DNA of 47,087 bases from a virus, in IMG/VR virus record IMGVR_UViG_3300046747_000203, positions 1-47,087 of that record. One strand, 5' to 3'. Each line of letters starts with the position of its first letter. Within the stretch, counting starts at the first letter, position 1. The translations under genes and the position numbers were made by a program. Of the stretch, positions 15,506 to 33,772 are shown piece after piece. The notes beneath the pieces were generated by a model. The model did no database searches, was not told the DNA's origin, and worked only from the letters and a program-made list of their open reading frames with translations.

Positions 15506-18337
15506 GTGCGGGGAAGCTACAAAATCGGTGTCATTGCGGTCTTTTCCGCAGCTACAATCGCGCTCGCTGGCTCCACGCAGACGCGCGGAAGGTTAACCGG
15601 CAGGGCTCACCACGGCGGGGGTAGTATACCGCCAACGGCTACCGCTACTCCGACGTCCGCTCCGCCTGCTCCGACGGCGACTCGTACTCCGACCGCTACT
15701 CCGACGTCTACGCCGACTCCGGTCGTGACGCCGAGCGGCTGGGGCGCGGATACGGCGGGCGGCACCGGGCAGACCACCGTCCACGTCACCAATACGAATG
15801 ACTCAGGCGCAGGGAGCCTCCGGACGGCCCTCTCGGCGGGCAACCGGAACATCGTCTTCGACGTCGGCGGGACGATCAGCCTGGCGTCGCGGCTTCTCGT
15901 GAACGGCTCGTTCGTCACGGTAGACGGGTCGACCGCCCCGAGCCCCGGCATCACGCTCACGAACTACAGCCTCCGGCTCGAGGGCAGCACGGTCCACGAC
16001 ATCATCCTGACGAACTTCCGCTCGCGCGCCCCGACGCTCGATACGGAGCCGGACAACGTCACGATCAAGAACGGGGCCTACAACATCCTGATCGACCACC
16101 TGTCCACGGATAGTCCGTCGGACGGGAATATCGACATCACCCTCGGCAGCCACGACATCACGGTCCAGTACAGCATTCTGAGCAACGGCACGAAGTCGAT
16201 GCTCTTGAATTACGCGACCTACCACGTCTCGATTCACCATAACCTCTTCATCAATGAGCAGTACCGGAGCCCGAATACCCAGTACGACGACGCGGCTACG
16301 AGCATGTCTCCGAGCGTCATTTCGGACGTCCGGAATAACGTCATCTGGAACTGGGGAGACTCGGGCGGCGGCTCGATCTGGCAGTGCGGAGGCACCGGGA
16401 ACGACGTCGCCAACTACTACTATTCGGGGGCGACGACGCCTTCCCGGAAGGCCAACGGCATCGTCAACGACGGATGTTCGGGAGGCACAGCACAACCCCA
16501 GTTCTACACCTCGGGGAACTTCAGCGGGGACGATTCCAGCTCGCATCTGAACGCGCAGGGAACGGTCGGCGGGGCCTGGTCGGCTCCGGTCATCGAAGAG
16601 CAGGCCGTCTGCGACGCAGCGACTCTCGTCAAGGGAGGGGCTGGAACGACCCCACTCGATGCGACCGATACGGCGCTTCTGAATGCCGTCTCTCTCGTCG
16701 GCTGCGTATCCCCGACGGCTACTCCGACGGCTACTCCGACGGCTACCAGGACTCCGACGGCAACGCCTACGGCAACCCGGACTCCTACTCCGACGCCGAC
16801 ACCGAGCGGGGGAATCAACCCGATCAATCCGGACTCTGATCTCACCTACCTCGGAGCTTTCCGGGTGCCGAACGACAACAACGCCGAGTGGACATTCGGG
16901 GGCACGGCCATGACCGTGAACCCGGCTGGAGACTCCGGAAACGGCTCCCTCTACCTGTCGGGCCTGACGATTGGGGCCGGGCACGGGAAATTCGCCGAGA
17001 TCAACATTCCGACTCCGATCATCGATCCGGACCTGAACAACCTGACTCGGGCAACGACGATTCAGGCCATGGCGGATATCGCTCCGGGGCTACACCCGAA
17101 CGACACACAGACGACCTTCCAGATGAGCGATCCGCTCTTCGGAGCCGTCAGCAATAAGTTGATGTGGACGCGGTACATCTTCTACCTCCCGGCGAGCGAG
17201 GCAACGCTCGGGTGCTCGAGCACGACCATATCGTCTCCGGCTCCGACCGGCCCCTGGAAGATCGGCCCGACACAGGCCGGGAACTACGGCGGAGCGACAC
17301 TTGGGCGCTGGCTCTTCATGCTGCCGCAGTCGTGGGCAGACGCGCACACCGGGGGCCGGGCTCTCGCTACCGGGCGCTTCCGAACGAACGCGAACGCGGG
17401 CGGAACATCCTGGGGGCCGTCCCTATTCGCGCTCCCGATGGCTTGCACGTCCGGAGCCTCGGACGCTGTCGAGGTCATGCACAACACGTCCCGCGATACG
17501 CGCTGGGCGCATGAGACCTGGGCAGACGACTGGAACGATGCCGACTGGGTAACGACTCCGACCGGGAACAAGGCGGCGATGGTGGTTGCCGGGGCGAAGG
17601 CGGAGCGGGAAGACGGCGGAAACGCCTGCGGATTCAACTTCTGCGGCTCCAGCCGCGGCGCTCAGTACTACGGCCACCCGCAAGCACACGACTGCGGAGG
17701 GAAGGGAAACCACGGGGCACCCATCTTCGGGGCACTCCTCTTCTACAACGTGAACCAGCTCGCCTCGGCTGCCGATGGGTCGATAGCGAAGGACTCGATC
17801 GACCCCTACGCGATCTACCAGATACGGGCCAATCAGTACCTGACGAGCCAGTGCAAGAAGGGCGGATTCGGGGGCATTGCCTACGACTCCACACATCACC
17901 GGCTCTACGTCGCGGAGCTGAACGCGGAGCTTCCCTCGACGACTCAGAAGCCGATCATCCACGTCTGGGCGGTTGCGGACGGAGGGGGCTCGGCAGACAC
18001 GACGGCTCCGGCAGTACCGACGGGACTCCACACGACGAGCGTGTCCGGAGCGGGCGTTGCGCTTGCCTGGAATGCGGTCACGGACCCAGCGGGCGGGGTC
18101 GTCTACATCGTCTACCGTAACCCGATTGACCAGGAGCTATTCGCTCCGGAGACGACGGTGCCTTACGGGCAGCGGTATCCGGCTGGGCCACAGCCATTCG
18201 CGATCACGTCGAGTCTCTCCTACACGGACGACTTGGAAATCAACTCGGGCATTACCTACACGTACTATGTGGCGGCGCGCGATTCGCTCGGGAACACGAG
18301 TGCACGGTCGAGCGGCGTAACGGCGGCAATCCCATAG
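15506..18337 (+). CDS. Pectate-lyase-like depolymerase with FN3 domain
   Basis: A 943-residue mosaic. Residues 1-25 form a signal-like segment; 43-77 a Thr/Pro linker; about 78-400 a right-handed beta-helix of the polysaccharide-lyase-1 kind (VHVTNTNDSGAGSLRTALS, VFDVGGTI, NILIDHLS at 193-200, VSIHHNLF at 241-248, YRSP at 253-256), where IDH and R-S-P match the lyase-1 signatures. A second Thr/Pro linker (402-435) leads to a ~390-residue domain beginning LTYLGAFRVP, not identified, and an FN3-like domain at about 831-943. It probably cleaves host polysaccharide. A signal segment is odd for a virion spike and suggests export or membrane docking. GTG 15506 follows GGGAGGGG. Confidence 0.8.
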   Translation: MRGSYKIGVIAVFSAATIALAGSTQTRGRLTGRAHHGGGSIPPTATATPTSAPPAPTATRTPTATPTSTPTPVVTPSGWGADTAGGTGQTTVHVTNTNDSGAGSLRTALSAGNRNIVFDVGGTISLASRLLVNGSFVTVDGSTAPSPGITLTNYSLRLEGSTVHDIILTNFRSRAPTLDTEPDNVTIKNGAYNILIDHLSTDSPSDGNIDITLGSHDITVQYSILSNGTKSMLLNYATYHVSIHHNLFINEQYRSPNTQYDDAATSMSPSVISDVRNNVIWNWGDSGGGSIWQCGGTGNDVANYYYSGATTPSRKANGIVNDGCSGGTAQPQFYTSGNFSGDDSSSHLNAQGTVGGAWSAPVIEEQAVCDAATLVKGGAGTTPLDATDTALLNAVSLVGCVSPTATPTATPTATRTPTATPTATRTPTPTPTPSGGINPINPDSDLTYLGAFRVPNDNNAEWTFGGTAMTVNPAGDSGNGSLYLSGLTIGAGHGKFAEINIPTPIIDPDLNNLTRATTIQAMADIAPGLHPNDTQTTFQMSDPLFGAVSNKLMWTRYIFYLPASEATLGCSSTTISSPAPTGPWKIGPTQAGNYGGATLGRWLFMLPQSWADAHTGGRALATGRFRTNANAGGTSWGPSLFALPMACTSGASDAVEVMHNTSRDTRWAHETWADDWNDADWVTTPTGNKAAMVVAGAKAEREDGGNACGFNFCGSSRGAQYYGHPQAHDCGGKGNHGAPIFGALLFYNVNQLASAADGSIAKDSIDPYAIYQIRANQYLTSQCKKGGFGGIAYDSTHHRLYVAELNAELPSTTQKPIIHVWAVADGGGSADTTAPAVPTGLHTTSVSGAGVALAWNAVTDPAGGVVYIVYRNPIDQELFAPETTVPYGQRYPAGPQPFAITSSLSYTDDLEINSGITYTYYVAARDSLGNTSARSSGVTAAIP
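15632..15736 (+). repeat. Thr/Pro-rich linker repeat 1
   Basis: Degenerate ACTCCGACG-type hexamer and nonamer repeats coding a Thr-Pro-Ala linker between the signal segment and the lyase domain. Expected to be unstructured and extended. Confidence 0.7.
16709..16810 (+). repeat. Thr/Pro-rich linker repeat 2
   Basis: A second block of the same GGCTACTCCGAC-type repeats after the lyase domain, more regular than the first. The two blocks bracket the lyase domain and share sequence, which would allow recombination to swap or delete the domain between them. Confidence 0.7.
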
Positions 18338-18357: not shown

Positions 18358-19776
18358 ATGAACAAACGGCGAAGTACCGTGATTATGTGGGGCCTGGTCG
18401 GCGTTCTCGCCGCGTCCATGCTCGGCATCACCACGGACCAGATCATCCAAAACGTCTACGACCCGGTAAACACCGCTCTACGGGCAAACGTCATCGGTGG
18501 GAGCGGCTCGCTCTCGCTGACCGTCGGGACGACTCCGATCACGAACGGGGCCGATACGCGAGTCCTCTTCCAAGACGGTACGGTACTCGGGGAAGACTCG
18601 GGACTCGTCTTCAACAAGACGACGAATGCGGTATCGGCGGGCGGAGACGTCACGGCCGGAGCCCTCGGGACGGGACCGGGAACCTTTACTGCGGATGCCG
18701 ATAGCTGCGTCACGCTCTCCGGGGCCTCGACGAACGTCCTCTGTTCGGACGCGGTCGGGGGATGGCTCGCCTCCGAGCTCGGCGGCGGATACTCGCATCA
18801 GCTCACGGCCAACTCTACGGACGTCGTCACGAACAAGACTTTTAACGGCATCACGTTTACCGGAGCTGTCACGGGACTCACCTCGGGACTCGTTCCACTG
18901 GCTTCGTCTTCGACGGGCCTTGCGGATTCGTCCTCCTACCGAGTGAGTCTGGCAAACTCCGGCTCTACCGGAACGACGGTCAACAAGACCGCCAAGCTCT
19001 CTTCGGCTGGGGCAGGCGTCATCATGTCGGCAGGCGATACGGCGGGTATCTTCGGCATCGTCGAATCGGGAGCAGGAACGACGGGAAGCGCGATCGTCAC
19101 CCTGATCGGCCTGACGACTTGCGTCTCTGACAACTCGACCACGACCGGCCATTACGCGGGGCTCTCGTCTTCGGTTGCAGGAGACTGTACCGACCTCGGA
19201 GCCTCGTTCCCGTCTACCGGAGTCGCCGTCATCGGCACATGGAAGGAGACCGGAGCGGCTGCGGCTCGGTCGATCCTTTTCAACACTCCTGACGTGTCGA
19301 GCGTGAGCGCGGCGACGAACGGAAACGGCAACGGCCCCGGCGTCAAGGGTTCGGGCACGGCGAACCTCATCCCCAAGTTCAGCAACGGCAACACCATCGG
19401 GAACTCGTCGATCACGGACAACGGGACGACCATCAGCTCGAGCGAGATCCTGTCGGTTGGGGCACTCACCTACAACGGGAAGCTCAACATCGCGGACATC
19501 ACCGCCGAGAACGCGAGCTTCACCATCGCTCACCGGATCGAGTACGTGACCACCTCGACGAGCACGATCGTAGCGACGACTCCGACCTCCCCGACGGTTG
19601 GGGACACCTACACGGTCGTCAAGGTAGACAGTGGAAACGGCAACATCACCTGGACGCGGGCGGGCTCCCAGACGCTCAACGGAGCAACCACGCGGGTCGT
19701 GTCGGCGCAGTACGCCGTCGATACCTGCACGTACATGGCCTCGAACGTGTGGATTTGCCAGGGTAACGGGACATGA
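18358..19776 (+). CDS. Tail-fibre-like protein with N-terminal membrane anchor
   Basis: A 472-residue protein. Residues 1-24 hold one hydrophobic span (VIMWGLVGVLAASMLGI), then TTDQIIQNVYDPVNTALR, the motif shared with the 51-residue protein at 15324. The rest is Ser/Thr/Gly-rich with fibre-like repeats (VVTNKTFNGITFTGAVTGL, GNSSITDNGTTISSSEIL), and the C-terminal ~80 residues have the look of a carbohydrate-binding tip (VGDTYTVVKVDSGNGNITW). The fibre call rests on composition and the TNKTF signature. Its TGA overlaps the next gene's ATG by 4 bases. Confidence 0.65.
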   Translation: MNKRRSTVIMWGLVGVLAASMLGITTDQIIQNVYDPVNTALRANVIGGSGSLSLTVGTTPITNGADTRVLFQDGTVLGEDSGLVFNKTTNAVSAGGDVTAGALGTGPGTFTADADSCVTLSGASTNVLCSDAVGGWLASELGGGYSHQLTANSTDVVTNKTFNGITFTGAVTGLTSGLVPLASSSTGLADSSSYRVSLANSGSTGTTVNKTAKLSSAGAGVIMSAGDTAGIFGIVESGAGTTGSAIVTLIGLTTCVSDNSTTTGHYAGLSSSVAGDCTDLGASFPSTGVAVIGTWKETGAAAARSILFNTPDVSSVSAATNGNGNGPGVKGSGTANLIPKFSNGNTIGNSSITDNGTTISSSEILSVGALTYNGKLNIADITAENASFTIAHRIEYVTTSTSTIVATTPTSPTVGDTYTVVKVDSGNGNITWTRAGSQTLNGATTRVVSAQYAVDTCTYMASNVWICQGNGT

Positions 19777-20771
19777 TCCGTAGACTCCTAGTCGCTCTCC
19801 TGGTCACGGTCGTCGCTGCGGGTGGGGCGTTCGGCTCCATCTACTCGACGACGATTCAGGCGGATGCCCCGGTGCATTGGTACAGGCTCGGAGAAACGAG
19901 CGGGACGGTCGCGAACGATGCCGGATCGTCGGTGGTTGCCGGAGACTACGCCGGAACCCTGAACACCGGGTATTTCCTGAGCGAGGTAGGCATCACCGGG
20001 GCGCTCCCGAATACGGCCGCTCGGTTCAACGGGACGACGGGGGACGTATCGACCAATCTGGCGACGGTTGCGGCCGTGGGTATCCCGTCATCGGCGAACG
20101 GCGTCGGGTGGAGCTTCGAGGGATGGGCAAAGACGTCCGCGAACGCCACCACGCAGTCAATCGCCGGGAACAACGGCACCAAAGCTGGCTGGGTAACGGG
20201 CTTTCACTCGACGAACAAGTTCTTCTTCAACATGGACAACGACTCGGGGACCTGCGGCGGTTCGACTTACGGCACCACCGGGAACGTCGGAAGCTGGTCC
20301 ACCGGGAACTACTACCACGTCGTCGCAACGAGCATCGGAGCCGGATCGGCGCAACTGACGAACATGAAGCTCTACGTGAACGGCTCCCTCCTCTCCACGG
20401 TTACGAGCTTTACCGGATCGATCTGTACGACGGGAATGCACGTCGTTCTCTTGGCCGCGCGCGACGGAACCACTCCCGGCCTCTTCATGACCGGCACGCT
20501 GGACGAAGCGGCCTTCTACCAGGCGCAGCTCTCCCAGACCCAGGTGACGACCCACTACAACGCGGGCATCTCGGTCTCCGGCTCTTTCGCCTGGCCCTTC
20601 CAGACGAGACGCCCAGAACTTCCCGGCTTCATCAACAAAGATTACTTGGCCCAGGCCGTGGCACGCGGGTACAATACGGGGCTTCTGACGTCACGGGAGA
20701 TCCACCCACAGCTCCTGAACGTCGGCTATGCGAACTTCGCACAGATGCCCTGGGGGAATGTTGGACACTGA
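19773..20771 (+). CDS. LamG/concanavalin-like adhesin with signal peptide
   Basis: A 332-residue protein. Residues 1-22 are a clear signal peptide (MIRRLL, then a Val/Ala-rich core). The mature protein starts a concanavalin-type (LamG_3) domain: APVHWYRLGETSGTVANDAG is the typical first strand, followed by ARFNGTTG, WSFEGWAKT, LYVNGSLLSTV and GTLDEAAFYQAQLS, the standard series for this fold. The C-terminal ~70 residues are not recognised. It should bind glycans. The signal implies export or docking at a membrane, as for the three genes upstream. The end overlaps a tiny membrane gene by 14 bases. Confidence 0.75.
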   Translation: MIRRLLVALLVTVVAAGGAFGSIYSTTIQADAPVHWYRLGETSGTVANDAGSSVVAGDYAGTLNTGYFLSEVGITGALPNTAARFNGTTGDVSTNLATVAAVGIPSSANGVGWSFEGWAKTSANATTQSIAGNNGTKAGWVTGFHSTNKFFFNMDNDSGTCGGSTYGTTGNVGSWSTGNYYHVVATSIGAGSAQLTNMKLYVNGSLLSTVTSFTGSICTTGMHVVLLAARDGTTPGLFMTGTLDEAAFYQAQLSQTQVTTHYNAGISVSGSFAWPFQTRRPELPGFINKDYLAQAVARGYNTGLLTSREIHPQLLNVGYANFAQMPWGNVGH

Positions 20772-21155: not shown

Positions 21156-21569
21156 ATGCCTGACATGATCCACGTTCTCGCCGACCAGCTTTCCACTCTC
21201 GCCAAGTCGGTCCGCCACCACGAGACGATTACAAATGCCGTCTTTGAGGGAAACCCCGACGGGCTCGTGGTAGTGAATGAACTCGGCACAATCGCTATGG
21301 TGAACGAGAGCTTAGAAAGAATGACCGGCTACAACCGACGGGACCTAGTCGGGAGGCCGGCGGAGATTTTGGTTCCGGAAGGAAGCCGCGAAAGACACGT
21401 CATGCACAGACTCAGCTACCTCATCAAGCCGACCGCGCGGCAGATGAATGGGGCGTTCACGATACAAACCGCAGACGGGGGCGCTCTTCCCGTAATGGTC
21501 GGGCTCTATCCGGCAGGTTCCAACGGGGACCGCTGGGTCGTAGTCACCGTTCGGGGTCGGCTTGGGTGA
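21156..21569 (+). CDS. Stand-alone PAS-domain protein
   Basis: A 137-residue protein almost entirely one PAS fold. After a short N-terminal helix come FEGNPDGLVVVNELGTIAMV, NESLERMTGYNRRDLVGRP, EILVPEGSRERHVMHR and PVMVGLYP with a final WVVVTVRG strand, in the order of PAS sensor domains of bacterial kinases and cyclases. There is no kinase, GGDEF or HTH output domain. PAS domains bind small ligands or mediate partner binding. A PAS protein in a phage lysis region is unusual. It could sense host state to time lysis or interfere with host PAS signalling. The cofactor is not predictable from sequence. Confidence 0.85.
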   Translation: MPDMIHVLADQLSTLAKSVRHHETITNAVFEGNPDGLVVVNELGTIAMVNESLERMTGYNRRDLVGRPAEILVPEGSRERHVMHRLSYLIKPTARQMNGAFTIQTADGGALPVMVGLYPAGSNGDRWVVVTVRGRLG

Positions 21570-23265: not shown

Positions 23266-23949
23266 ATGGCAGTCTTCTATACGTTCCTACAAGCCAAGCA
23301 GGAGCTTCAGTACCGGCTCGGGAACCGGACCGACCTAGGGTCCGGGAGCCAGGACCGGCTCTCCCTCTGGCTCGACGTTGCGCAGATCCAGGTCTCTTCC
23401 TGCGTCATCTCGTGCGAGACGCTGGATGTCGTCAGCTTCCCGCTCACTACCGTGCAGGGGCAGACGGAGTACAGCCTCCAGTCGATTCTCCCTCCGGCAA
23501 CGAACGTCATCGGGTTACGCGATCTCCGGAACAACACGACCGGAAACAAGATGCGCCGGTTCGACTGGCAGGAATACCGGAGCTTGAACCAGCAGGCACA
23601 GGGGCAGCCGCTCCGCTGGGCGCGGCTCGGGTATATCTTGGCGTTCGACCCGCAGCCGGACAACGAAGGCCCGTACACCATCTTCATCGACTACCGCCGG
23701 GAGCCGCAGCGAGGCATTTCGGAGCTTCCGAATCGGTTCCAGGACAGTTGGATCACGGCAGCCGAGTGGATCGGCTGGAAGGCGCTGCTCAAGCCGGAGC
23801 GGGCGCAAGCAGCGTTCGCGCTCCTCCCGGCGCAGCTCCAGACCATGCTCGCGCGGCCTCTGGACTGGGACCAGTGGGATGCCATGTGGGACAACGACCT
23901 CGGCATCAGGCCACTTGGGTTCGAGTATCCGTATCTCGTAGGGCCGTGA
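23266..23949 (+). CDS. Head-tail adaptor, P22 gp4-like
   Basis: A 227-residue protein likely to extend the portal ring and seat the tail, by analogy with P22 gp4. The N-terminal helical part (FYTFLQAKQELQYRLGNR, DRLSLWLDVAQIQVS) resembles gp4-type adaptors, followed by a beta insert (FPLTTVQGQTEYSL, LGYILAFDPQPD) and a C-terminal helical bundle (WITAAEWIGWKALL). It sits just upstream of a fibre-like gene and the gp10-like propeller gene, an order common in podoviruses. The assignment is from pattern and order, not a catalytic motif. Confidence 0.68.
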   Translation: MAVFYTFLQAKQELQYRLGNRTDLGSGSQDRLSLWLDVAQIQVSSCVISCETLDVVSFPLTTVQGQTEYSLQSILPPATNVIGLRDLRNNTTGNKMRRFDWQEYRSLNQQAQGQPLRWARLGYILAFDPQPDNEGPYTIFIDYRREPQRGISELPNRFQDSWITAAEWIGWKALLKPERAQAAFALLPAQLQTMLARPLDWDQWDAMWDNDLGIRPLGFEYPYLVGP

Positions 23950-23953
23950 CCGG

Positions 23954-24697
23954 GTGGCAACGCAATATCGAAAGGACGCCTCGACCGTCCTGAACATCCT
24001 CCTCCCCCGTCTCCCGGCTTCTAAGCCGTCGGACTGGTCGGAGAAGAGCTCGTTCGACTGGGCGAAGGGACTCCTTCGGAGCCTGGATTCGTTCTTCGCA
24101 ATCGTCCACCGGATTCAGGACAACGGGACGGACCAGCCGCTTCGGGCAAAGCTCAACTTCCTCGGAGCCTCCGTTACGGACGACCTCACGAGCGACGCGA
24201 TTCAGGTATCGATTGCCGGAGGCGCAGGGGCGGCTCCGAAGAACGCTAGCTACATCTGCGTATCGCTGAACGGGGACTTGACTGCGGAGCGGACGCTCTT
24301 TGCCGGGGACGGCCTCACGTCCACGGACAGCGGAGCGGGCGCAAACTTCACGCTCCAGGTCGGCGCGGGGACTGGTCTGAACGTCCAGGCAGACGTCGTG
24401 AACCTCGCCAATACCGCAGTCACGCCGACGACCTACGGGGACGCAACGCACGTCGGCCAGTTCACCGTGGACCAGCAGGGACGGCTGACGGCCGCAGCGC
24501 CGATCGCCATCACTCACCCGGTGCCGACGGTCGTCGGGCAAGCCTATATCGTGTCAGGGCTCCCGGCTGCGCCGCCGCAGGGGACGCGCGCGTGGGTGAC
24601 GGACGCGACTGCGCCGGTCTTCCTGACCCCTCTCGTCGGACTCGGTGGCGTGGTGTGTCCGGCCTTCTATGACGGAACGAATTGGGTGGCGGCTTGA
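23954..24697 (+). CDS. Tail-fibre-like protein
   Basis: A 247-residue protein starting at GTG 23954. The N-terminal ~70 residues are helical; the rest is beta-rich Ser/Thr/Gly/Ala sequence. TTYGDATHVGQFTVDQQGRL with TAAAPIAI is a very typical phage tail-fibre repeat (G-A-T-V-Q-TVD-QGR-TAA). The C-terminus (FYDGTNWVAA) is like a fibre tip module. Its TGA overlaps TTG 24694 of the propeller gene. Position between adaptor and propeller suggests a short spike or fibre bound to the tail knob. Confidence 0.72.
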   Translation: MATQYRKDASTVLNILLPRLPASKPSDWSEKSSFDWAKGLLRSLDSFFAIVHRIQDNGTDQPLRAKLNFLGASVTDDLTSDAIQVSIAGGAGAAPKNASYICVSLNGDLTAERTLFAGDGLTSTDSGAGANFTLQVGAGTGLNVQADVVNLANTAVTPTTYGDATHVGQFTVDQQGRLTAAAPIAITHPVPTVVGQAYIVSGLPAAPPQGTRAWVTDATAPVFLTPLVGLGGVVCPAFYDGTNWVAA

Positions 24698-27426
24698 CGA
24701 TCGAAAACAAACAGCTTCCGTTCCAAGGAATGAGCGATCACGACGCGCTCCAACTCGAGCCGCAGTTCGCGGCGAACGTCCGGAACGTGCGCTCCTTCCG
24801 GGAGCGAATCGTTCGGTCTCCGGGTGGGACTCTTCTCGCTCCGCCTCCGGACCCGTCTGCTGGGAACCCCGGCTACGGAGCCGTAGTCGGGACGTTCACG
24901 AAACAGGCGGGGACGGGGAATCAGACAGTCTCGCACTCCCTCGGGCACGCCCCATCTGCGCTCATACTCTATTCCGTCGGAACGACCACGTCGGACAGCG
25001 TCGTAGCGAACTACCACTGTGGCTTCGGATTCACCGACGGGACCACGTCGCGGTCGGTCTGCTCGGCGCAGCTCGACAACATCGCAACGGGTGGGGCCAC
25101 CGGACCGAGTCCCGGCGCGCGGCGAATGACCGCAACGCTCCTCCAACTCTGCAACAGCACGGGCTCGGCGACCGTCCTATCGTCGGCAACGTTCGTATCG
25201 TTCTCGTCGTCGAACTTCATCGTCAACTGGACCACGAATGACGGCCAGCCCGCCCAGATCAACTACATCATCATCGGTGCGACCAACGTGCACGCGAAGG
25301 TGATCGGCTGGCGGCAGGACGGCACGACCTCGAACCAGGTCATCACAGGGGCGGGTTTCAAGCCTCAAGTCGTGATCCACTTGATGAACGATGCTCCGAG
25401 CCTCCCGTTTGGCGGCTCGGCCGAGCGGCTCACCATCGGGGCGATGGACGATGCGGGTAGGCAATTCGCCTACGGTTCGAACGCTCAGGCCACCTCTTCT
25501 GACCACGAGTCGGGGAGTGCGCTCCGGACGGACTGCTGCCTCGTGTCCTACGGAGAAACGACATTCCCGACGCCGCACAATTTTGCGTCATACGTGTCGA
25601 TGGATACCGATGGGTTCACGGTAACGAACTCGGCACCGACTGGCCCGAGCTTCCCCCCGAACTACTTCGTTGGGAGCCTGTGCTTGAACGGACTCGACTT
25701 CGCGCGGGTCGGCACGTTCAATCGCACGACCGCGTCCGCGCCGACGAGGCAGGACGTGACGGGACTCGGCTTTATGCCGGTAGCCACCATGCTCGTCGAG
25801 TGCGGGAGCAACAACAACAGTGTCAGCGTCGGGGCAGCGGACACCGTGAGCCAGTTCTCCGCTGCTTACTATACGGCCGAGGGCGGGAGCCGAACGAGCA
25901 CCGTATCCTATACGACCGCGCAGCGGGCACTCGTCGACATCACGTCCCCGGAGGCCTCGCGGGTCGCAAACGCGATCGGAACCCTAATCGCGTACAACGC
26001 TGACGGATTCACGCTGAACTATACCGTTACCAATTCGCGCGCGGCCCCCGTCGGCTACGTGGCGCTGAAGTTCGCGTCCTCCACGGGCGGCCTTATCGGT
26101 ATCCCCAGGAATTACCCGGAAGTCTACGTCGACCCGTCCGGTCCGGCTACCCAGAAGTACGTGATGCTGACTCACAAGTCGGCCTTCATTTATACCCCCT
26201 CGACCCCTTCGACGGGTGTCTTCACGCCGACCGCCGAGGCATACACCGGGAACCAGTACCAGCGCTTCTCGATCGCGAACACGCAGGGAATCGCTGCGTG
26301 GAGCCAGGGAGTGGACAATATCCGCGAGTGGGACGGAACGAACTTCTCCGCGCTCGTCACGAGCGGACAGGACCACGCCGCACGGGCACTCATATCGTTC
26401 GCGGACCGGATCGTCTCCATTCGCCCCTACTTCGGCGGAGCGGACCATCCGACACAGATCCGGTGGTGCATCAACGGGGACGTGAACGACTGGAACGGGA
26501 CGGGAAGCGGAGTGCTCGAGATCATCGAGACGTCACAGGACCCGCTGATAACGGGCTTTGTCCTCGCGGACCGAGCGTTCCTAGCCAAGCGCCGGGAGAT
26601 CATCGAGCTTCTCTACACCGGCACACTCAGCCCCGTCTTCGGCACGGTCCCCCGGATACGCGGTATGGGAGTCCTCGCTCCCCACTCGGTGGCACTCGCG
26701 GAGCAGCTCGCTTTCTGGCTCGGACCAGACGATGTCTACATGTTCGACGGGTCCACGCTGACGGCTATCGGCGAGCGGATGTACAACACCATTACGAGCT
26801 TCATCAACTACCAGAACCTCGACGTCGTTCAGGGGGCCGTGTACACGCCGGACTCCCAGTACCATCTGGTCATCCCGCCGTACAAATTTGTGTACGACTA
26901 CCGGAGGGACATCTGGGACTGGGACGACGTCTACGACTTCCAGGCTATCGGGACTTACAACGTCGGGGACGGGAACAACTTCACCGCCGATATCGACAAG
27001 TCGGAATTCATCGTAGTCGGGGATTCTTCGGCGCAGACGACGCGTGTGGACTTCCAGGTGACGGGCTGGCTCGGAGCTCCAATCGACTCCTACTTCGAGA
27101 CGAAGGACTATACCGCCGACGACATCGGGCGGCAGGCCGGGCAGATGGGGCGGTTCTCCGTCTCCCTGTGGGACCTGAACTCGCTCCGAGAGGTGCGGTT
27201 CCAGGGGCCTCCAGGGAACATCGTCGAGGTCGGAATATCGCTTGACCGGGGGGCAACCTGGGAGCTTTGGCCTGTGACGATCAATCAGTTCGGAGTCGGA
27301 GCAGCGTGGTTCCAGCGGGCGTTCAGTATTGTGCGGTTCCGGTTCCGGGACTTCGGTACGGACAGCTACGAGATTCGCGGGCAATGGGGATTCGATGTAG
27401 AACAAGCCGGGTACAACATCGCGTGA
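24694..27426 (+). CDS. Tail propeller protein, P22 gp10-like, with domain insertion
   Basis: A 910-residue protein. Residues 1-60 (NVRNVRSFRERIVRSPGGTL) and about 466-910 form the podovirus tail-hub or DNA-stabilisation protein; diagnostic stretches are FADRIVSI, QIRWCINGDVNDWNG, LADRAFLAKRREIIELLYTG and RIRGMGVLAPHSVALAEQL followed by FWLGPDDVYMFDG. Between them, about residues 62-462, lie three tandem copies of a ~135-residue beta domain not normally part of this protein. TTG 24694 overlaps the previous TGA; ATG 24730 is an alternative. The protein should plug the portal channel after packaging. The inserted domains would project from the tail as extra receptor-binding modules. Confidence 0.8.
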   Translation: MTIENKQLPFQGMSDHDALQLEPQFAANVRNVRSFRERIVRSPGGTLLAPPPDPSAGNPGYGAVVGTFTKQAGTGNQTVSHSLGHAPSALILYSVGTTTSDSVVANYHCGFGFTDGTTSRSVCSAQLDNIATGGATGPSPGARRMTATLLQLCNSTGSATVLSSATFVSFSSSNFIVNWTTNDGQPAQINYIIIGATNVHAKVIGWRQDGTTSNQVITGAGFKPQVVIHLMNDAPSLPFGGSAERLTIGAMDDAGRQFAYGSNAQATSSDHESGSALRTDCCLVSYGETTFPTPHNFASYVSMDTDGFTVTNSAPTGPSFPPNYFVGSLCLNGLDFARVGTFNRTTASAPTRQDVTGLGFMPVATMLVECGSNNNSVSVGAADTVSQFSAAYYTAEGGSRTSTVSYTTAQRALVDITSPEASRVANAIGTLIAYNADGFTLNYTVTNSRAAPVGYVALKFASSTGGLIGIPRNYPEVYVDPSGPATQKYVMLTHKSAFIYTPSTPSTGVFTPTAEAYTGNQYQRFSIANTQGIAAWSQGVDNIREWDGTNFSALVTSGQDHAARALISFADRIVSIRPYFGGADHPTQIRWCINGDVNDWNGTGSGVLEIIETSQDPLITGFVLADRAFLAKRREIIELLYTGTLSPVFGTVPRIRGMGVLAPHSVALAEQLAFWLGPDDVYMFDGSTLTAIGERMYNTITSFINYQNLDVVQGAVYTPDSQYHLVIPPYKFVYDYRRDIWDWDDVYDFQAIGTYNVGDGNNFTADIDKSEFIVVGDSSAQTTRVDFQVTGWLGAPIDSYFETKDYTADDIGRQAGQMGRFSVSLWDLNSLREVRFQGPPGNIVEVGISLDRGATWELWPVTINQFGVGAAWFQRAFSIVRFRFRDFGTDSYEIRGQWGFDVEQAGYNIA

Positions 27427-27854
27427 GATTCAAGACGGAGAAGATAGATGGCGGACTCAGATTCACGGCCCCGGACGGCTGGGTCGATCTCCAGCTCCTC
27501 GACGACGGCAGGGCTTACGTCTTCCTCGGCACCTACAACGGGACCATCCCGGAAGTATTCGGGGCGAGACTTTGGCGTCTGCTTCATGATGGGACCCCTG
27601 AGCTCGGCCTCCGCGTGGTGGCGTATGATGACGCTCAGGACCCGTTTATTGAGCGAGTGCTGATCGCCGCGGGATTCTCGAAAGATGGAATCCGGCGCGG
27701 GTGGCACGCCGATGGTCAAGACGGTGTAATCTATAGTATTCTCGCCTCGGAGCTTCGCTTTGAAATCAAGGAGCCGGTAGATGATGGAAACGGACAGGTT
27801 GGGGAGGCTGCTGAACCTCTGGACGCAGGAAATGCGGGGGCTCCCCTCTCATAA
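27423..27854 (+). CDS. GNAT-like protein
   Basis: A 143-residue protein, GTG overlapping the propeller TGA (GTGA). The first 40 residues are beta strands (FTAPDGWVDLQLLDDGRAYV); then VVAYDDAQDPFIERVLIAAG followed by FSKDGIRRGW resembles the C-terminal acetyl-CoA region of GNAT acyltransferases (n-A--lYe--GF--eG--r). The Q/R-x-x-G-x-G pyrophosphate loop is not clear, so catalysis is uncertain. GNAT-like proteins occur next to internal virion proteins in some T7-like phages, and ejection-type genes follow here. The last 74 bases overlap the next gene. Confidence 0.55.
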   Translation: MRFKTEKIDGGLRFTAPDGWVDLQLLDDGRAYVFLGTYNGTIPEVFGARLWRLLHDGTPELGLRVVAYDDAQDPFIERVLIAAGFSKDGIRRGWHADGQDGVIYSILASELRFEIKEPVDDGNGQVGEAAEPLDAGNAGAPLS

Positions 27855-28082: not shown

Positions 28083-28685
28083 GTGGCGAATTTCTTTCAG
28101 CCAGGCGATTCCAAGGGAACCCAGAACACCTCGACGACGCCGTCTCCGGCCGACCAGGCGCTGGCGAAGTTCCGGGCGGCGATTCTCGCGCATGTCCTGA
28201 ACTACCAGGGACAGCCCCGGACTGGGTTCTCTCAGTTCGCGGGTGGCGCTCCTGTGTCGCCGAAGCTGCCTCCGAACCTCGGGGCAGGACTCCCGGATCT
28301 CCTTCAGGCAATGAGCCAGCCGGGTGCCTTCACCCGCAATGCATCCCAGGAGCTTTCAGGCCACGGGCCGACCCCGTCGATGGCGAGCGACATCGGACAG
28401 GGCCTAGGGCTCCTGAGCCTCCTCAGTTCGACGGGCGTGCTCGGGGCGGGGGCAAGGGGAGCCGGAGACATCTTCGACTTCATTCGAGGCCTCCCCTCGA
28501 GCAATCTAAACCTCGGCCCGACCACCGGATCGAGCCCCGGAATGAATGCTTACGGCACCGCGAACGACAACACTCTCGCTGGCCTCGGCACGGTCGGCTC
28601 TCCGACGGATCAAGTGCCCTATGCGGGCGCGGGAGACTCCGGGGCTAGCCTACTAGCGAGCATCCTCGGGTACGGCAGCTACTAA
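28083..28685 (+). CDS. Ejection-type internal protein (small)
   Basis: A 200-residue Gly/Ser/Ala/Pro-rich protein of low complexity with hydrophobic patches (LLQAMSQPGAFT, GQGLGLLSLLSSTGVLGAGA). Such sequence is typical of podovirus proteins injected with the DNA. GTG 28083 lies 2 bases after the previous stop. The next gene starts directly after its TAA. Confidence 0.5.
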   Translation: MANFFQPGDSKGTQNTSTTPSPADQALAKFRAAILAHVLNYQGQPRTGFSQFAGGAPVSPKLPPNLGAGLPDLLQAMSQPGAFTRNASQELSGHGPTPSMASDIGQGLGLLSLLSSTGVLGAGARGAGDIFDFIRGLPSSNLNLGPTTGSSPGMNAYGTANDNTLAGLGTVGSPTDQVPYAGAGDSGASLLASILGYGSY

Positions 28686-29600
28686 GTGGCGGACGTAGCC
28701 GCAGCGCCGAGTCCGGAGCAGGCGTCTAACCCGCTCTTCCAGCAGCTGGCGAGCCGCTACGGCGTCAACGCAGCGCTCGCGCTCCTGCCGCTCTTCAGCG
28801 GCGACTCGAGCACGGCTTCCAAGGCGTTCGCTGGCGGGTCTCTCGCGGGCTCTGGTGCTCAGGCAGCGGGTGCCCTGGGGGGCAGTCCGGCGCTAGCGAG
28901 CCTAGGATCGAAGATCGGCACGGGACTCGGCCTCGCTGGGCTCGGCTACAACGCCTACCAGACGCTCAACAACCCGAACCTCGACGCGGCCCACAAAGGG
29001 GCGGCAATCGGAGAAAACGTCGGGGGCCTCGGGGCTACGTATTTGTACGGAGGCTACGGGGCTCTGCCGGCTATCGCGACTGCGCTCGGGAACCAGTTCC
29101 AGAAGTCGGGGAGTCCGCAGGTTCAGGGACTCGGCCGGGGCCTCACGACCGCGGGGCATCCCGTGGCGGACGTCACGAAATCCCCATTCAACACGAGCGG
29201 AGCGAAGCAGTTCACCGAGACGATGGTGCTCGGTGGGCCGGCTGGGATGGCCCTCTCGAATGCGATCGGCTTCAACCCGTTCGAGCCGACGCCCACGAAG
29301 GGGACGGAGTTTCGGACGGGAATGCAGTCGATCTTCTCGAAACTGGGACTCCCTGGGTTCAACCGGGCGGATGCGAACGTCTATACGGCGGGTGCTGACC
29401 CGGCTTCTTTCTACGCGAAGTACAACCCGCAAGCGGTATCCGATGCTCAGAAGCTCGGGACGCTGCTCGCGCAGTATTCTCCGCACGGGAAGAACAACCA
29501 GGATTACTCGACGCAGACCCAGAACATCCTTCTCAACACGTTCGGCAACAACATCAGCGGGCAGATGCCCGACATACTGAAAAAGCTCGGCGTTTCGTGA
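28686..29600 (+). CDS. Ejection-type internal protein
   Basis: A 304-residue Gly/Ala-rich protein starting at GTG immediately after the previous TAA. Glycine-zipper-like hydrophobic stretches (GSLAGSGAQAAGALGG, GTGLGLAGLGYNAYQTL, VGGLGATYLYGGYGALPA) suggest membrane insertion. The C-terminal third is more polar (YNPQAVSDAQKLGTLLAQYS). This pattern fits pilot or ejection proteins that form a channel through the host envelope. Function is inferred from composition and position. Confidence 0.55.
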   Translation: MADVAAAPSPEQASNPLFQQLASRYGVNAALALLPLFSGDSSTASKAFAGGSLAGSGAQAAGALGGSPALASLGSKIGTGLGLAGLGYNAYQTLNNPNLDAAHKGAAIGENVGGLGATYLYGGYGALPAIATALGNQFQKSGSPQVQGLGRGLTTAGHPVADVTKSPFNTSGAKQFTETMVLGGPAGMALSNAIGFNPFEPTPTKGTEFRTGMQSIFSKLGLPGFNRADANVYTAGADPASFYAKYNPQAVSDAQKLGTLLAQYSPHGKNNQDYSTQTQNILLNTFGNNISGQMPDILKKLGVS

Positions 29601-29612
29601 TAAAGGAAGATC

Positions 29613-30137
29613 ATGGCGACTGACCTGTTCGGACAAAATGGGATGATGTCCTTCCCGACGACCGCCTGGAACAGCGGCGTGAATCCGACGGCGAACCTCG
29701 GACCCCCGACGACTCAGGGGAACGTGTCGTTTGGCCCACGAGGCCCCCAGGAAACGCTCATGGACAAGTTCTTCGGCGGGGCGCTCACGGGACAGGGCGG
29801 TGGGCCGGTCGGGAACATGCTCTACTCGCTCGGGCAAGGCATCCTGCCGAAGCCGATGCAGGACATGATAACCGGGACCACGAACGACCAGTTCGGGAAG
29901 CTCGGCGCACGGTTCGGTACGGATCTCGGCACGGCGGTCTCTCGAGGGCTCGGGCAGGCGGGCTCTACGCAAGCGCTCAACGCCATCAACTCGATCATCG
30001 GCCTCGGCGGAACGACGGCTGGGTTCGAGTTCCAGCGTGGAGAAAACGGCATGAACCGGGCGCTCCAGGAGTTTCTCCAGGGGAACAACCAGGACTCCAC
30101 GATGCAGCTCCTACAGATGCTCCTCGGCGGCGGTTGA
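29613..30137 (+). CDS. Ejection-type internal protein
   Basis: A 174-residue Gly/Gln/Asn-rich protein. ATG 29613 follows AAGGAAG. Segments NMLYSLGQGILPKPMQDMIT and LGTAVSRGLGQAGSTQALNA resemble its neighbours, so the block at 27781-31418 may have arisen in part by duplication. It ends with TGA then TAG just before the next ATG. Confidence 0.52.
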   Translation: MATDLFGQNGMMSFPTTAWNSGVNPTANLGPPTTQGNVSFGPRGPQETLMDKFFGGALTGQGGGPVGNMLYSLGQGILPKPMQDMITGTTNDQFGKLGARFGTDLGTAVSRGLGQAGSTQALNAINSIIGLGGTTAGFEFQRGENGMNRALQEFLQGNNQDSTMQLLQMLLGGG

Positions 30138-30140
30138 TAG

Positions 30141-31418
30141 ATGAACCTGTTCGACTTCATGGCCGCCAATAACGGCCCCCAGCAGCAGCAGGACCCCGCT
30201 GACATGCTCGGCGGTGGTGGAGTCGGGCTCTCTCACGGGGACGCCATGACGCTGTCGCTCCTGAATGCGATGCAGCAGCAGGCGCAGGCCGGGACGCAGC
30301 GGACGGCTTCTCCGATCGGGTCCATTGCTCAGTCGCTCGGGCCGCTTCTGGCTGCACCGATTCAGGCTCAGCAGATGGAGCAGCAGTCGATGCTCCAGGG
30401 GCTTCTCCTTCGGGCGAAGATCGCGAGCCTCCTCGGGAAGGATCAAGCGGACCCGGCCGATGCGGCATACAAGACGGCGCAGACGCGGAACCTCAACGCG
30501 GAGGCGACGCTACATGAGAACGAGGCGAAGGACCCGCTTGCGAGCCTGAAGCTCGGCGGAGAAGATCGCCTCATTGCCCAGAACCTACAGGCACAGGGCA
30601 TCCAGCCGACCGCTCCGAACATCCTGAAGTACAAGGAAGACCAGCAGCTAAGGAACGACCAGCGCTTCATCGAGCGTTCAAACGCAATCACTCAGAATGC
30701 GCTCGCTACGCGGGACGCGGACGCCCAGGCGAAGCGCCTCATTGCCCCAGCAGACTCGCTCCCGGAGAACAAGGGCTACACGGTCCTCGATCTCAATACC
30801 GGGAAGCCAGCGCGTGTTTCGCAGGGACAATTGGATGACCCATCGAGTCAGTACGCGAAGTTCAGCACCAAGGACATGCAGATCATCAACGGGGCGAAGG
30901 TCATCGCGCAGCAGACCGCGCGCCTGAAGGAGCTTATCCCCAAGATTCTCCCGGAGAATCGAGTCTGGGCACCGCTCTCTCTCGTCGGGCAATCGATGTC
31001 CTCGGACGAGCAAACCGGCAAGGATACGGGCGAGTTCGACAACCTGGCCGACATCACGAACATTCAGGGCATCAAGGAGTTCGTTGCCGGGCGCGGGCCG
31101 AACCAGACAGAGATCAACAACATCGGCCCCATCCACCGCTCGGTGGACAATCAGGCGCGGGCTCTCGGTAAGGTGGAGGCGCTAGAGGGGACGATCCGCA
31201 GGGAACTGGCCGCCCGAGGCATCAACCCGGAAGCCTTCTTCAAGCAACCGGCTGCATCGCTATCCGTCGCTCCTCGGGGTGGGGCACAAGCAACCCCGTC
31301 TCGACTGGATGAGGCGAGTAAGACCATCGAATGGCTCCGGGCTAATAAGACTCCGAAGGCCGAGGCTGCGAAGTTCCTGAAGACTCTCTACGGGGACCTC
31401 TCCGTCGATATCCAGTAA
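30141..31418 (+). CDS. Ejection-type / internal virion protein
   Basis: A 425-residue protein. The first 100 residues are Gln/Ala/Gly-rich (QQQQDPADML, LLNAMQQQAQAG); the middle and C-terminus are charged helical sequence (KYKEDQQLRNDQRFIER, IIQQ-like helices near MQIINGAKVIAQQTARLKEL). Long helical proteins in this position are internal virion proteins that cross the envelope with the genome. Its TAA shares the ATG of the next gene (TAATG). Confidence 0.58.
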   Translation: MNLFDFMAANNGPQQQQDPADMLGGGGVGLSHGDAMTLSLLNAMQQQAQAGTQRTASPIGSIAQSLGPLLAAPIQAQQMEQQSMLQGLLLRAKIASLLGKDQADPADAAYKTAQTRNLNAEATLHENEAKDPLASLKLGGEDRLIAQNLQAQGIQPTAPNILKYKEDQQLRNDQRFIERSNAITQNALATRDADAQAKRLIAPADSLPENKGYTVLDLNTGKPARVSQGQLDDPSSQYAKFSTKDMQIINGAKVIAQQTARLKELIPKILPENRVWAPLSLVGQSMSSDEQTGKDTGEFDNLADITNIQGIKEFVAGRGPNQTEINNIGPIHRSVDNQARALGKVEALEGTIRRELAARGINPEAFFKQPAASLSVAPRGGAQATPSRLDEASKTIEWLRANKTPKAEAAKFLKTLYGDLSVDIQ

Positions 31419-33772
31419 TGCCGACGCTAAGCGAACTCCTCGACCAGGCTTACGGGCCTGACGGCGGGAAGTCCGAGGGCACGCAAGCCTTCGAGGCCGC
31501 GACCAGCTCGACCCCGATCTCCCTTGGGCGGACCGAGCCCCTAGCGCAAGCGGCACAGTCCGACGTCAAGGGCCTCTCGAACCTGATCGGCAACCTCTCG
31601 AACCCCCGCAACATGCCGCAAACGGCGGGTGCGCTCATTCAGGCAGGCGGCACGGCCATGCTTGGGCCGGAGGCTCCAGGGGTCGGCAATGCGCTGCTCC
31701 GGATGCTGATCGGGGCGGGCACGTCGATGGTCGGCGGGTCTCTACAGAGGGGCGAAGTGACCCCGACCGGACTCATGCAGGACGCGGCTCTCGGAGCAGG
31801 CAGCGAAGGGCTCGTATCGGGTGGCGGGTGGCTGGAGCGGCAGCTCTCCGGCAAGGCCGGGCTACAGGCCGAAGCGGCTGCGGCGGAAGCCGAGGCAGCA
31901 TCCAATCTCGCGGCCACTCGGAGCAACGCCGAGCTCGCGCAGAAGGCGAAGCTCGCCGATGTCGAAGGCGCTGCTGCCGCAAAAGCAACAGCCGAGCAAA
32001 CGGCATTCGACACGGCACGGACGGGGGCTATCGAGGATCAGAAGGCCCGGCTTGCCGACGTATCGAAGGCAGCGGGAGCGGATGCTCTAGCGGGACGTGA
32101 GGCAGCGGTCTCTGACGTGGAGAGCGCCAGGGCGAAGCTCGATGATCTCCTGCTCCGGCATTCGGACCGCGCCGCTCAGCTTGCCCACGGCGACGCGCTC
32201 GAGGCCGAAGTACGGAGAGTCATCGGAGCCCCGTCTCCTCTCGAAAACCCGACGATCGAGAGCCTGAACGAAAGAGCCATGCCCGTTCGGTCCTTGGCGG
32301 AGCGAGGCGTCAGGGGCGTCTTTCGCGGCATCGGGCAGAAGTTCGAGGACCTCCTTCAGCCCTACTACCAGCTCCCCGTCTCGGGGGACTTCCGCTCCAT
32401 CGTTGATGCGGAACGCTCCACGCTCGAGGCTGGCGGACAGACCGTGACGCCGAAGATGACGAAGCTGATGGACGAGGTGGCGGGACTGAATCCACCCACC
32501 CCGCCCCCTCCGCCCTCCGGCCTGGTAGACCCGCGAGACGCGAACCGCCCTGGCCGGATGACCCAAGCCGAAATCAAAGCGCGGACAATGGGTATGCTCG
32601 GACGAGGGCAGCCAGGGACGACCGTTCAAGAAGTGGACGGGCTTCGGAGGCGGCTGACAGGCGTCGTGACGGGTGACGGATCATCGACTGATCGGCTCGT
32701 TGCGAACCGGATGATCCAAGCTCTCGATAGCCACCTCGAAGGCGTCCTTCCTCCCGAGACGCAAGCCGCGTGGACGCAGCTACGGAGCGACTGGCGAGAG
32801 GCCAACAACGTATTCTCCCCGAACTTCCGCTCCATGCTCTTCAAGGCGGACACGCCGGAGCGGGTGGCGGACGTGCTCTATGGGTCGGCGCAGGGGAAGA
32901 ATGCGGACCGGGTCCTGACGGTCCTCGGGAAGACTCCGCCCGCAGAGAAGCCGCTTCTCCGGTCTGCGTTCGCCGAGAAACTCGCACGCGGGGATGTCGT
33001 CAAGAACGTCGAGGGCCTAGACCCGCGGGTCTTCAAGGCATTCTTCAACGGGAGCGGATTCGAGAATCCGAAGGCATGGACGGACGCTCTCCGGACGAAC
33101 ATTTCCGAGAAGTTCGACATGCCGACGATCCTGTCAAATCCCGTTACGGCTGCGAAATTCAACGCCCGCATCCAGGAAGGCATGAACTCCTTCGGTGCTC
33201 GCAAGGCACAGGCAGCTATCGATGCCGCCGAGGCTCATCTCCGCTCGGTGAAAGATCCGGGTGCGGCAATCGCAGATGCGATGAAGGGCGAGCTTACGCC
33301 CCCGCAAGCCGGAGATATCGCGATGCGCGGGAAGGCTCGTCCGGACGTGAATCAGGCGGTTGCCTCGGCTCGCGCAGCCGAGCTCACGCCCCCGCAGGCG
33401 GGTGACGTTGCTACGGCAGGCATGGAGCGCCCTGACGAAGCACGAGTACGCGGCGGCATGGAAGGGATGCGAGAACCGCTCCTCGGCCAGCATTTCTCCC
33501 ACTACATCCAGCGCCACATGGCCTGGAAGGTCGGACTCTCGATGGCCGCTATCGGGATGGTGTCTCACAACCCCGCAGCCCTTGCCGTCCCGCTCGTCTA
33601 CCTGGGCGGAAGCAAGGCAATCGGCTCGGCGCTCGCCAACCCGGTGATCGGGAAGACCTGGTACAACATGCTCACGTCGAAGAACTACGAGCAGGCTGGG
33701 TTCTGGCTCGGTCGGCTTGCGGCGGGAGTCTTGTCCGAGTCGGTCCGAGAAGCCCGCCCACGCGACAAGTAG
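31418..33772 (+). CDS. Large internal virion / ejection protein
   Basis: A 784-residue protein, last of the late operon. The N-terminal 140 residues are Gly/Ala-rich with possible membrane segments; about 140-240 is a long Ala/Glu/Lys coiled-coil-like helix; then a Pro-rich spacer and a mainly helical body (ADTPERVADVLYGSAQGKN). Near the end the phrase ELTPPQAGD occurs twice with related spacing, followed by a final hydrophobic region (WKVGLSMAAIGMVSHNPAALAVPL). This layout matches the large podovirus ejection proteins. The last 88 bases overlap a convergent minus-strand gene. No lytic transglycosylase motif was seen. Confidence 0.62.
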   Translation: MPTLSELLDQAYGPDGGKSEGTQAFEAATSSTPISLGRTEPLAQAAQSDVKGLSNLIGNLSNPRNMPQTAGALIQAGGTAMLGPEAPGVGNALLRMLIGAGTSMVGGSLQRGEVTPTGLMQDAALGAGSEGLVSGGGWLERQLSGKAGLQAEAAAAEAEAASNLAATRSNAELAQKAKLADVEGAAAAKATAEQTAFDTARTGAIEDQKARLADVSKAAGADALAGREAAVSDVESARAKLDDLLLRHSDRAAQLAHGDALEAEVRRVIGAPSPLENPTIESLNERAMPVRSLAERGVRGVFRGIGQKFEDLLQPYYQLPVSGDFRSIVDAERSTLEAGGQTVTPKMTKLMDEVAGLNPPTPPPPPSGLVDPRDANRPGRMTQAEIKARTMGMLGRGQPGTTVQEVDGLRRRLTGVVTGDGSSTDRLVANRMIQALDSHLEGVLPPETQAAWTQLRSDWREANNVFSPNFRSMLFKADTPERVADVLYGSAQGKNADRVLTVLGKTPPAEKPLLRSAFAEKLARGDVVKNVEGLDPRVFKAFFNGSGFENPKAWTDALRTNISEKFDMPTILSNPVTAAKFNARIQEGMNSFGARKAQAAIDAAEAHLRSVKDPGAAIADAMKGELTPPQAGDIAMRGKARPDVNQAVASARAAELTPPQAGDVATAGMERPDEARVRGGMEGMREPLLGQHFSHYIQRHMAWKVGLSMAAIGMVSHNPAALAVPLVYLGGSKAIGSALANPVIGKTWYNMLTSKNYEQAGFWLGRLAAGVLSESVREARPRDK

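Follow-up and report, generated by a model that had tools for sequence, protein, structure and literature searches.

A triplicated domain in the nozzle protein of an uncultivated phage as a probable natural single-chain trimer of a fibre head

Most receptor-binding heads of phages are homotrimers carried by stalks that are trimeric too. The phage nozzle can also carry extra domains. Phage SU10 has four Ig-like nozzle domains inserted between propeller blades 2 and 3 (PMC9509320), and crAss001 has an Ig-like domain inserted between blades 2 and 3 too (PMC10172136). The SU10 chain passes from the platform into blade 1, blades 1-3 are set off from the tail axis, and blade 1 faces outward from the nozzle and is the docking place of the short tail fibres (PMC9509320). 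Here we describe a nozzle-like protein from an uncultivated phage (IMG/VR record IMGVR_UViG_3300046747_000203; the window is the whole stretch analysed, 47,087 nucleotides) in which residues 64-466 are an insert of three homologous units of about 130 residues each. We consider it probable that this insert is a natural single-chain trimer of a fibre head, set in the nozzle, binding a host-surface ligand and exchanged as a cassette.

The gene is open from a TTG at 24694 to 27426 and encodes a gp10/nozzle-like product of 910 residues (P0001) with the following parts:

24694..24882, + strand: N-terminal platform-like nozzle segment (empty-site alignment with the nozzle N-termini of phiM5, 7-11, PJNS034, TacPo2 and SU10)
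24883..25296, + strand: unit 1 of the triplet, P0001 residues 64-201 (unit HMM 91 bits, profile comparison, AF2 model)
25297..25701, + strand: unit 2, residues 202-336, with DTDGFTVTN (unit HMM 78 bits, profile comparison, AF2 model)
25702..26091, + strand: unit 3, residues 337-466, with NADGFTLNY (unit HMM 63 bits, profile comparison, AF2 model)
26098..27423, + strand: beta-propeller/nozzle core, restarting at GIPRNYPEVYV, residue 469 (phrog_3287, hhalign)

The coordinates, motifs and resume point (GIPRNYPEVYV, window 26098) given in the original prediction are correct; the DGFT motif of unit 1 is degenerate (SSNFIVNW). By sequence homology, the propeller core appears to belong with the gp10/nozzle proteins of short-tailed phages: phrog_3287 (virion structural protein) matches residues 490-865 of P0001 over profile positions 73-484 (E 1.2e-22), and hhalign pairs the core with nozzle proteins that have no insert (E 3.4e-12). 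A profile of the nozzle relatives reaches SU10 gp17 (7z47) at E 1.4e-76. A profile restricted to the nozzle clade of the window matched no PDB chain, and the SU10 connection runs via intermediate relatives.

Several neighbouring genes deserve mention. The gene directly before the nozzle gene (23954-24697, 247 residues) is 78% identical in the closest relative, L001, has a fibre-like look with no family match, and possibly encodes a fibre or fibre adaptor. An ORF in another frame (27366-27854) overlaps the nozzle gene 3′ end by 61 bases; it has no family match and is 96% identical in L001 and 39% in L049, another nozzle relative. Two further genes are candidate binding proteins: a 943-residue pectate-lyase-like protein at 15506-18337 (PF00544, phrog_27797), a candidate tailspike, and a LamG-like protein at 19773-20771 (PF13385), a candidate second binding protein. 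Just upstream of the lysis genes, in an unusual position for a PAS sensory fold, is a 137-residue PAS-domain protein (21156-21569; PF13426, E 8.6e-11) that is 94% identical in L001. Regions 23266-23949 and 28083-33772 gave no family matches; reading the first as adaptor-like and the second as ejection-like, which would give the order adaptor, nozzle, ejection proteins, is based on position.

The normal nozzle fold does not include the inserted block, which is absent from the uninserted relatives Venkman gp49 (478 aa), phiM5 (502 aa) and Salmonella phage 7-11 (571 aa). Comparison with such gp10-like proteins had been suggested as a check, and it bears out the proposed insertion into a gp10-like propeller protein. 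All four detected members of the window's nozzle clade (the window, L001, L042 and L049) carry the block; in L049 unit 3 alone is visible, and then the contig ends. When the block is removed, the N-termini of the window, L001 and L042 proteins align with those of phiM5, 7-11, PJNS034, TacPo2 and SU10. The N-terminal nozzle segment ends in a conserved motif (NVRxxRERIVRSPGGTLLAP), and in the empty-site alignment the junction falls directly after its GG and before the first propeller strand. Two other uninserted nozzle relatives, the Venkman-like L091 and L105, have another kind of insertion, shorter (about 60 residues) and in a loop further downstream, and therefore nozzle loops accept inserts at several sites.

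The window insertion does not occupy the SU10-type site between blades 2 and 3 but lies about 50 residues upstream of it, the SU10 site being at about residue 110. The original prediction had placed the units in the plug, at the tail tip. This is not supported, as the SU10/phiM5 alignment puts the insert between the N-terminal platform segment and blade 1. Because SU10 blade 1 faces outward and the short fibres dock there, a lateral head is the better guess, and by this analogy a lateral, fibre-like position would be likelier than the tail tip. The full-length AF2 model, in which the propeller has low confidence (pLDDT 49, pTM 0.47), gives no pose of the head on the nozzle.

The three units are true repeats. 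Self-alignment, which had been proposed as the check for the claimed tandem repeat, is by itself too weak: in the three pairwise comparisons, 24/500, 0/500 and 1/500 shuffles equalled or exceeded the observed scores. As comparison of the three parts is this close to chance, proof of the repeat needed relatives. Profiles of units 1, 2 and 3 built from 36 proteins align with one another over their full length (E 1.5e-37, 1.3e-32 and 1.1e-31), and the window protein has three matches with the unit HMM.

The unit constitutes a separate family, whose members in this analysis come only from uncultivated phages and from a small number of bacterial MAGs. In the first scan, one other phage (L001) proved to have the entire protein and others just the block; profile scans added about 80 more loci. 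Profile searches found no Pfam or PHROG model covering the family. Relatives of the module were absent from 50,697 phage records searched by tblastn with the window protein and the L002, L005 and L198 modules, and no match to the module was found in cultured phages. Among 297 genomes of the phylum of one Blastocatellia MAG there was one solid match, a triplet.

The number of units per protein follows a strict rule. Units were counted by the unit HMM in every open frame, and proteins were collapsed at 90% identity. Three units are present in 59 of the resulting 73 clusters and one unit in the other 14; two, four or more units occur in 0 of the 73. Part of the set stems from a scan with a single-unit query (A9), in which one-, two- or four-unit proteins could surface; the triplets therefore do not reflect the choice of a triplet as query. 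Short linkers join the units (median 6.5 residues). With close relatives left out, the best-matching profile is that of the unit's own position for 95 of 108 units, which means that the triplication is ancient and that positions 1, 2 and 3 have stayed distinct.

Single units are found at the extreme C-terminus in 14/14 cases, 0-11 residues from the end; L022 is a complete protein of this type. In L187 a collagen stretch (PF01391, E 4e-7) directly precedes the single unit. L196 and L199 have tail-fibre-type N-terminal domains (phrog_1640 and phrog_13893), that of L196 matching Pelagibacter phage tail fibres, and L199 has a long heptad-like stretch. Collagen-type, heptad-type and fibre N-terminal architectures like these are the architectures of homotrimeric fibres. 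Read most simply, a head takes three units, from three chains or from one, and the single units would trimerise.

Triplets occur in a wider range of contexts. Stand-alone triplet proteins have about 410-440 residues, and 29 of the 59 triplet proteins are no longer than 480 residues from stop to stop. Triplets are also N-terminal in long repetitive proteins, and are fused to a minor tail protein in L032 and to a tail spike in L013. By our reading, the stand-alone triplet of L011 lies behind tape-measure-like and distal-tail-like genes. Triplets are behind major capsid genes in L004 and L005 and beside a head-tail adaptor in L002, and some of these may be head fibres or decoration. Two adjacent genes of L020 (3194-4435 and 4439-5653) each encode a stand-alone triplet. 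Two Blastocatellia MAG proteins (L037:2152-6087 and L038:3791-7678) have a likely signal peptide, the triplet and then a C25 (gingipain-type) peptidase-like domain (E 6.9e-84, tested on L037). The head seems to be used by cellular secreted enzymes too.

Comparison of the window with L001 indicates how the triplet evolves. Amino acid identity of the nozzle protein is 84% in the N-terminal segment, 47, 33 and 34% in units 1, 2 and 3, and 92.5% from residue 469 onward, in the propeller; the triplet is 39% identical between flanks of 84-93%. Third codon positions are 36-43% identical in the units and 76% in the propeller. Across the 14.7-kb locus, identity in the remaining genes compared is 78-100%, with the upstream gene at 23266-23949 at 100%, making the triplet the most divergent stretch compared. 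A like pattern is seen at larger distance in L042. Recombinational exchange of the block is likely, because fast amino acid change alone would spare synonymous positions. The alignments suggest that the triplet is likely swapped as a cassette between related phages by recombination. Such block exchange is typical of receptor-binding parts.

Could the insert be a dock or spacer, a pseudo-trimer that holds some other trimeric protein, a fibre or tailspike, on the nozzle and itself makes no host contact? The trimeric short fibre of SU10 attaches near blade 1 via a quasi-threefold dock loop with a tryptophan star (PMC9509320), and the pectate-lyase-like protein of the window could be the separate tailspike. 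However, the single units are free C-terminal ends of fibres, not bases. A dock should also coevolve with its partner and stay conserved, whereas the triplet is the most divergent stretch among neighbours that are 78-100% identical. We regard a docking role as improbable.

AlphaFold2, run on the window triplet with a 38-sequence input (413 residues), predicts a compact all-beta fold of three domains in a fixed mutual arrangement (pLDDT 87.8, pTM 0.91). Of 994 PDB chains aligned to the model, the best match is the single-chain C1q head 5hzf (Z 7.9, 241 residues, 5.3 A) and the second is the single-chain adiponectin trimer 4dou (Z 7.5, 235 residues, 5.2 A), both spanning model residues 1-405. 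The next matches are the APCbeta and PCSK9 C-terminal domains, at Z 5.3 and lower. From the one-or-three rule one would expect just such a match of the whole model to single-chain trimers, and a trimeric geometry is predicted for the window triplet. A Z of 7.9 is in a range that can mean common arrangement alone, Foldseek sequential PDB scores are weak, and Z values of 7.9 and 7.5 are too low to infer shared ancestry with C1q. In the C1q head the chain ends come together at the base, and 3-residue linkers suffice (PMC4774423). Ends meeting at one base would also account for the ability of the block to sit within a loop. An H-type lectin, considered from the motif pattern, had no sequence match and was not among the fold matches listed, although absence there does not exclude it.

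This model bears on a less probable explanation, in which the insert would be a tandem of independent Ig-like beta-sandwich adhesion domains extending from the nozzle like beads. The SU10 and crAss001 nozzle proteins do carry inserted Ig-like domains (PMC9509320, PMC10172136), and every unit of the AF2 model is all-beta. Bead-like repeats vary in number, but here there are one or three in 73/73 clusters; a pTM of 0.91 over 413 residues indicates a fixed mutual arrangement; the top structural matches are compact single-chain trimers; and the insertion site differs from that of SU10 and crAss001. The original prediction had spoken of tandem domains and adhesin-like units; the one-or-three rule together with the fold match points to one pseudo-threefold head, not to three independent modules in series.

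Finally, an enzymatic module, such as a polysaccharide or peptidoglycan hydrolase, is very unlikely: the triplet does keep company with enzymes, preceding the C25 peptidase domain in the two Blastocatellia proteins, but there the enzyme is a separate domain, the unit matches no enzyme family, and what is conserved in its alignment is glycine, proline and the DGFT turns, with no catalytic set.

We favor the single-chain fibre head. Elsewhere this fibre-tip domain occurs once per chain, presumably as part of fibres that are homotrimers; here three copies are fused in one chain and would close into one pseudo-threefold head. The block sits in a loop of a presumably hexameric nozzle protein, after the platform segment at the N-terminus and ahead of blade 1 of the propeller, and every subunit would carry one such head, pointing sideways from the nozzle. 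Binding of a host-surface ligand is the most likely function of the head, which is probably swapped as a cassette between related phages. The adhesin-like role that had been proposed is supported to this extent, receptor binding being the probable function of the head, and the triplet is likely part of host recognition by these uncultured phages.

There are several consequences if this is true. First, a natural single-chain trimer would explain how a head could be transferred to virion parts that are not trimeric, such as a nozzle subunit with no local three-fold axis. Second, one head would have three binding faces that evolve separately, the positions being distinct and old. Third, the triplet would point to a host-range determinant in a group of uncultivated phages. 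On balance, we favor a still broader view: that this is an undescribed family of phage fibre heads with two forms only, one unit per chain at fibre tips or a natural single-chain trimer, the latter freed from the stalk, able to be built into loops of proteins that lack three-fold symmetry, the hexameric nozzle among them, and swappable as a host-range cassette.

Our literature search on single-chain trimers in phages, DUF7483 and carbohydrate-binding nozzle inserts found nothing relevant. SU10 (Kuravirus) gp17 and crAss001 muzzle gp44 are hexameric seven-bladed propeller nozzles, as the window protein would be, and likewise have a large insertion, but theirs is Ig-like and between blades 2 and 3, whereas that of the window is before blade 1 and of another domain family. 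The top predicted-structure match is a BFVD DUF7483 protein of an uncultured phage (E 2.8e-7, probability 1.00). However, the DUF7483 Pfam model (PF24299, 330 positions) is touched by 2/38 family members (best E 0.0088), and at its cut-off of 27 bits there is no match for the window module and none in four MAGs. The PCSK9 C-terminal domain and APCbeta of perforin-like protein 1 also have beta modules in one chain, in a threefold arrangement, but match at Z 5.3 and lower and have no sequence relation. The window module has no Pfam match, and C1q and TNF were not among the 25 families listed for 38 members. The closest likeness of the model is to 5hzf and 4dou, which consist of three beta-sandwich units joined in one chain by short linkers to form one head, the arrangement predicted for the window triplet. 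Those were engineered from animal proteins, whereas the fusion in the window is natural and from a phage, with no detectable sequence relation. The natural parents of these constructs, C1q and adiponectin, have a collagen stalk and one head unit per chain, as in L187.
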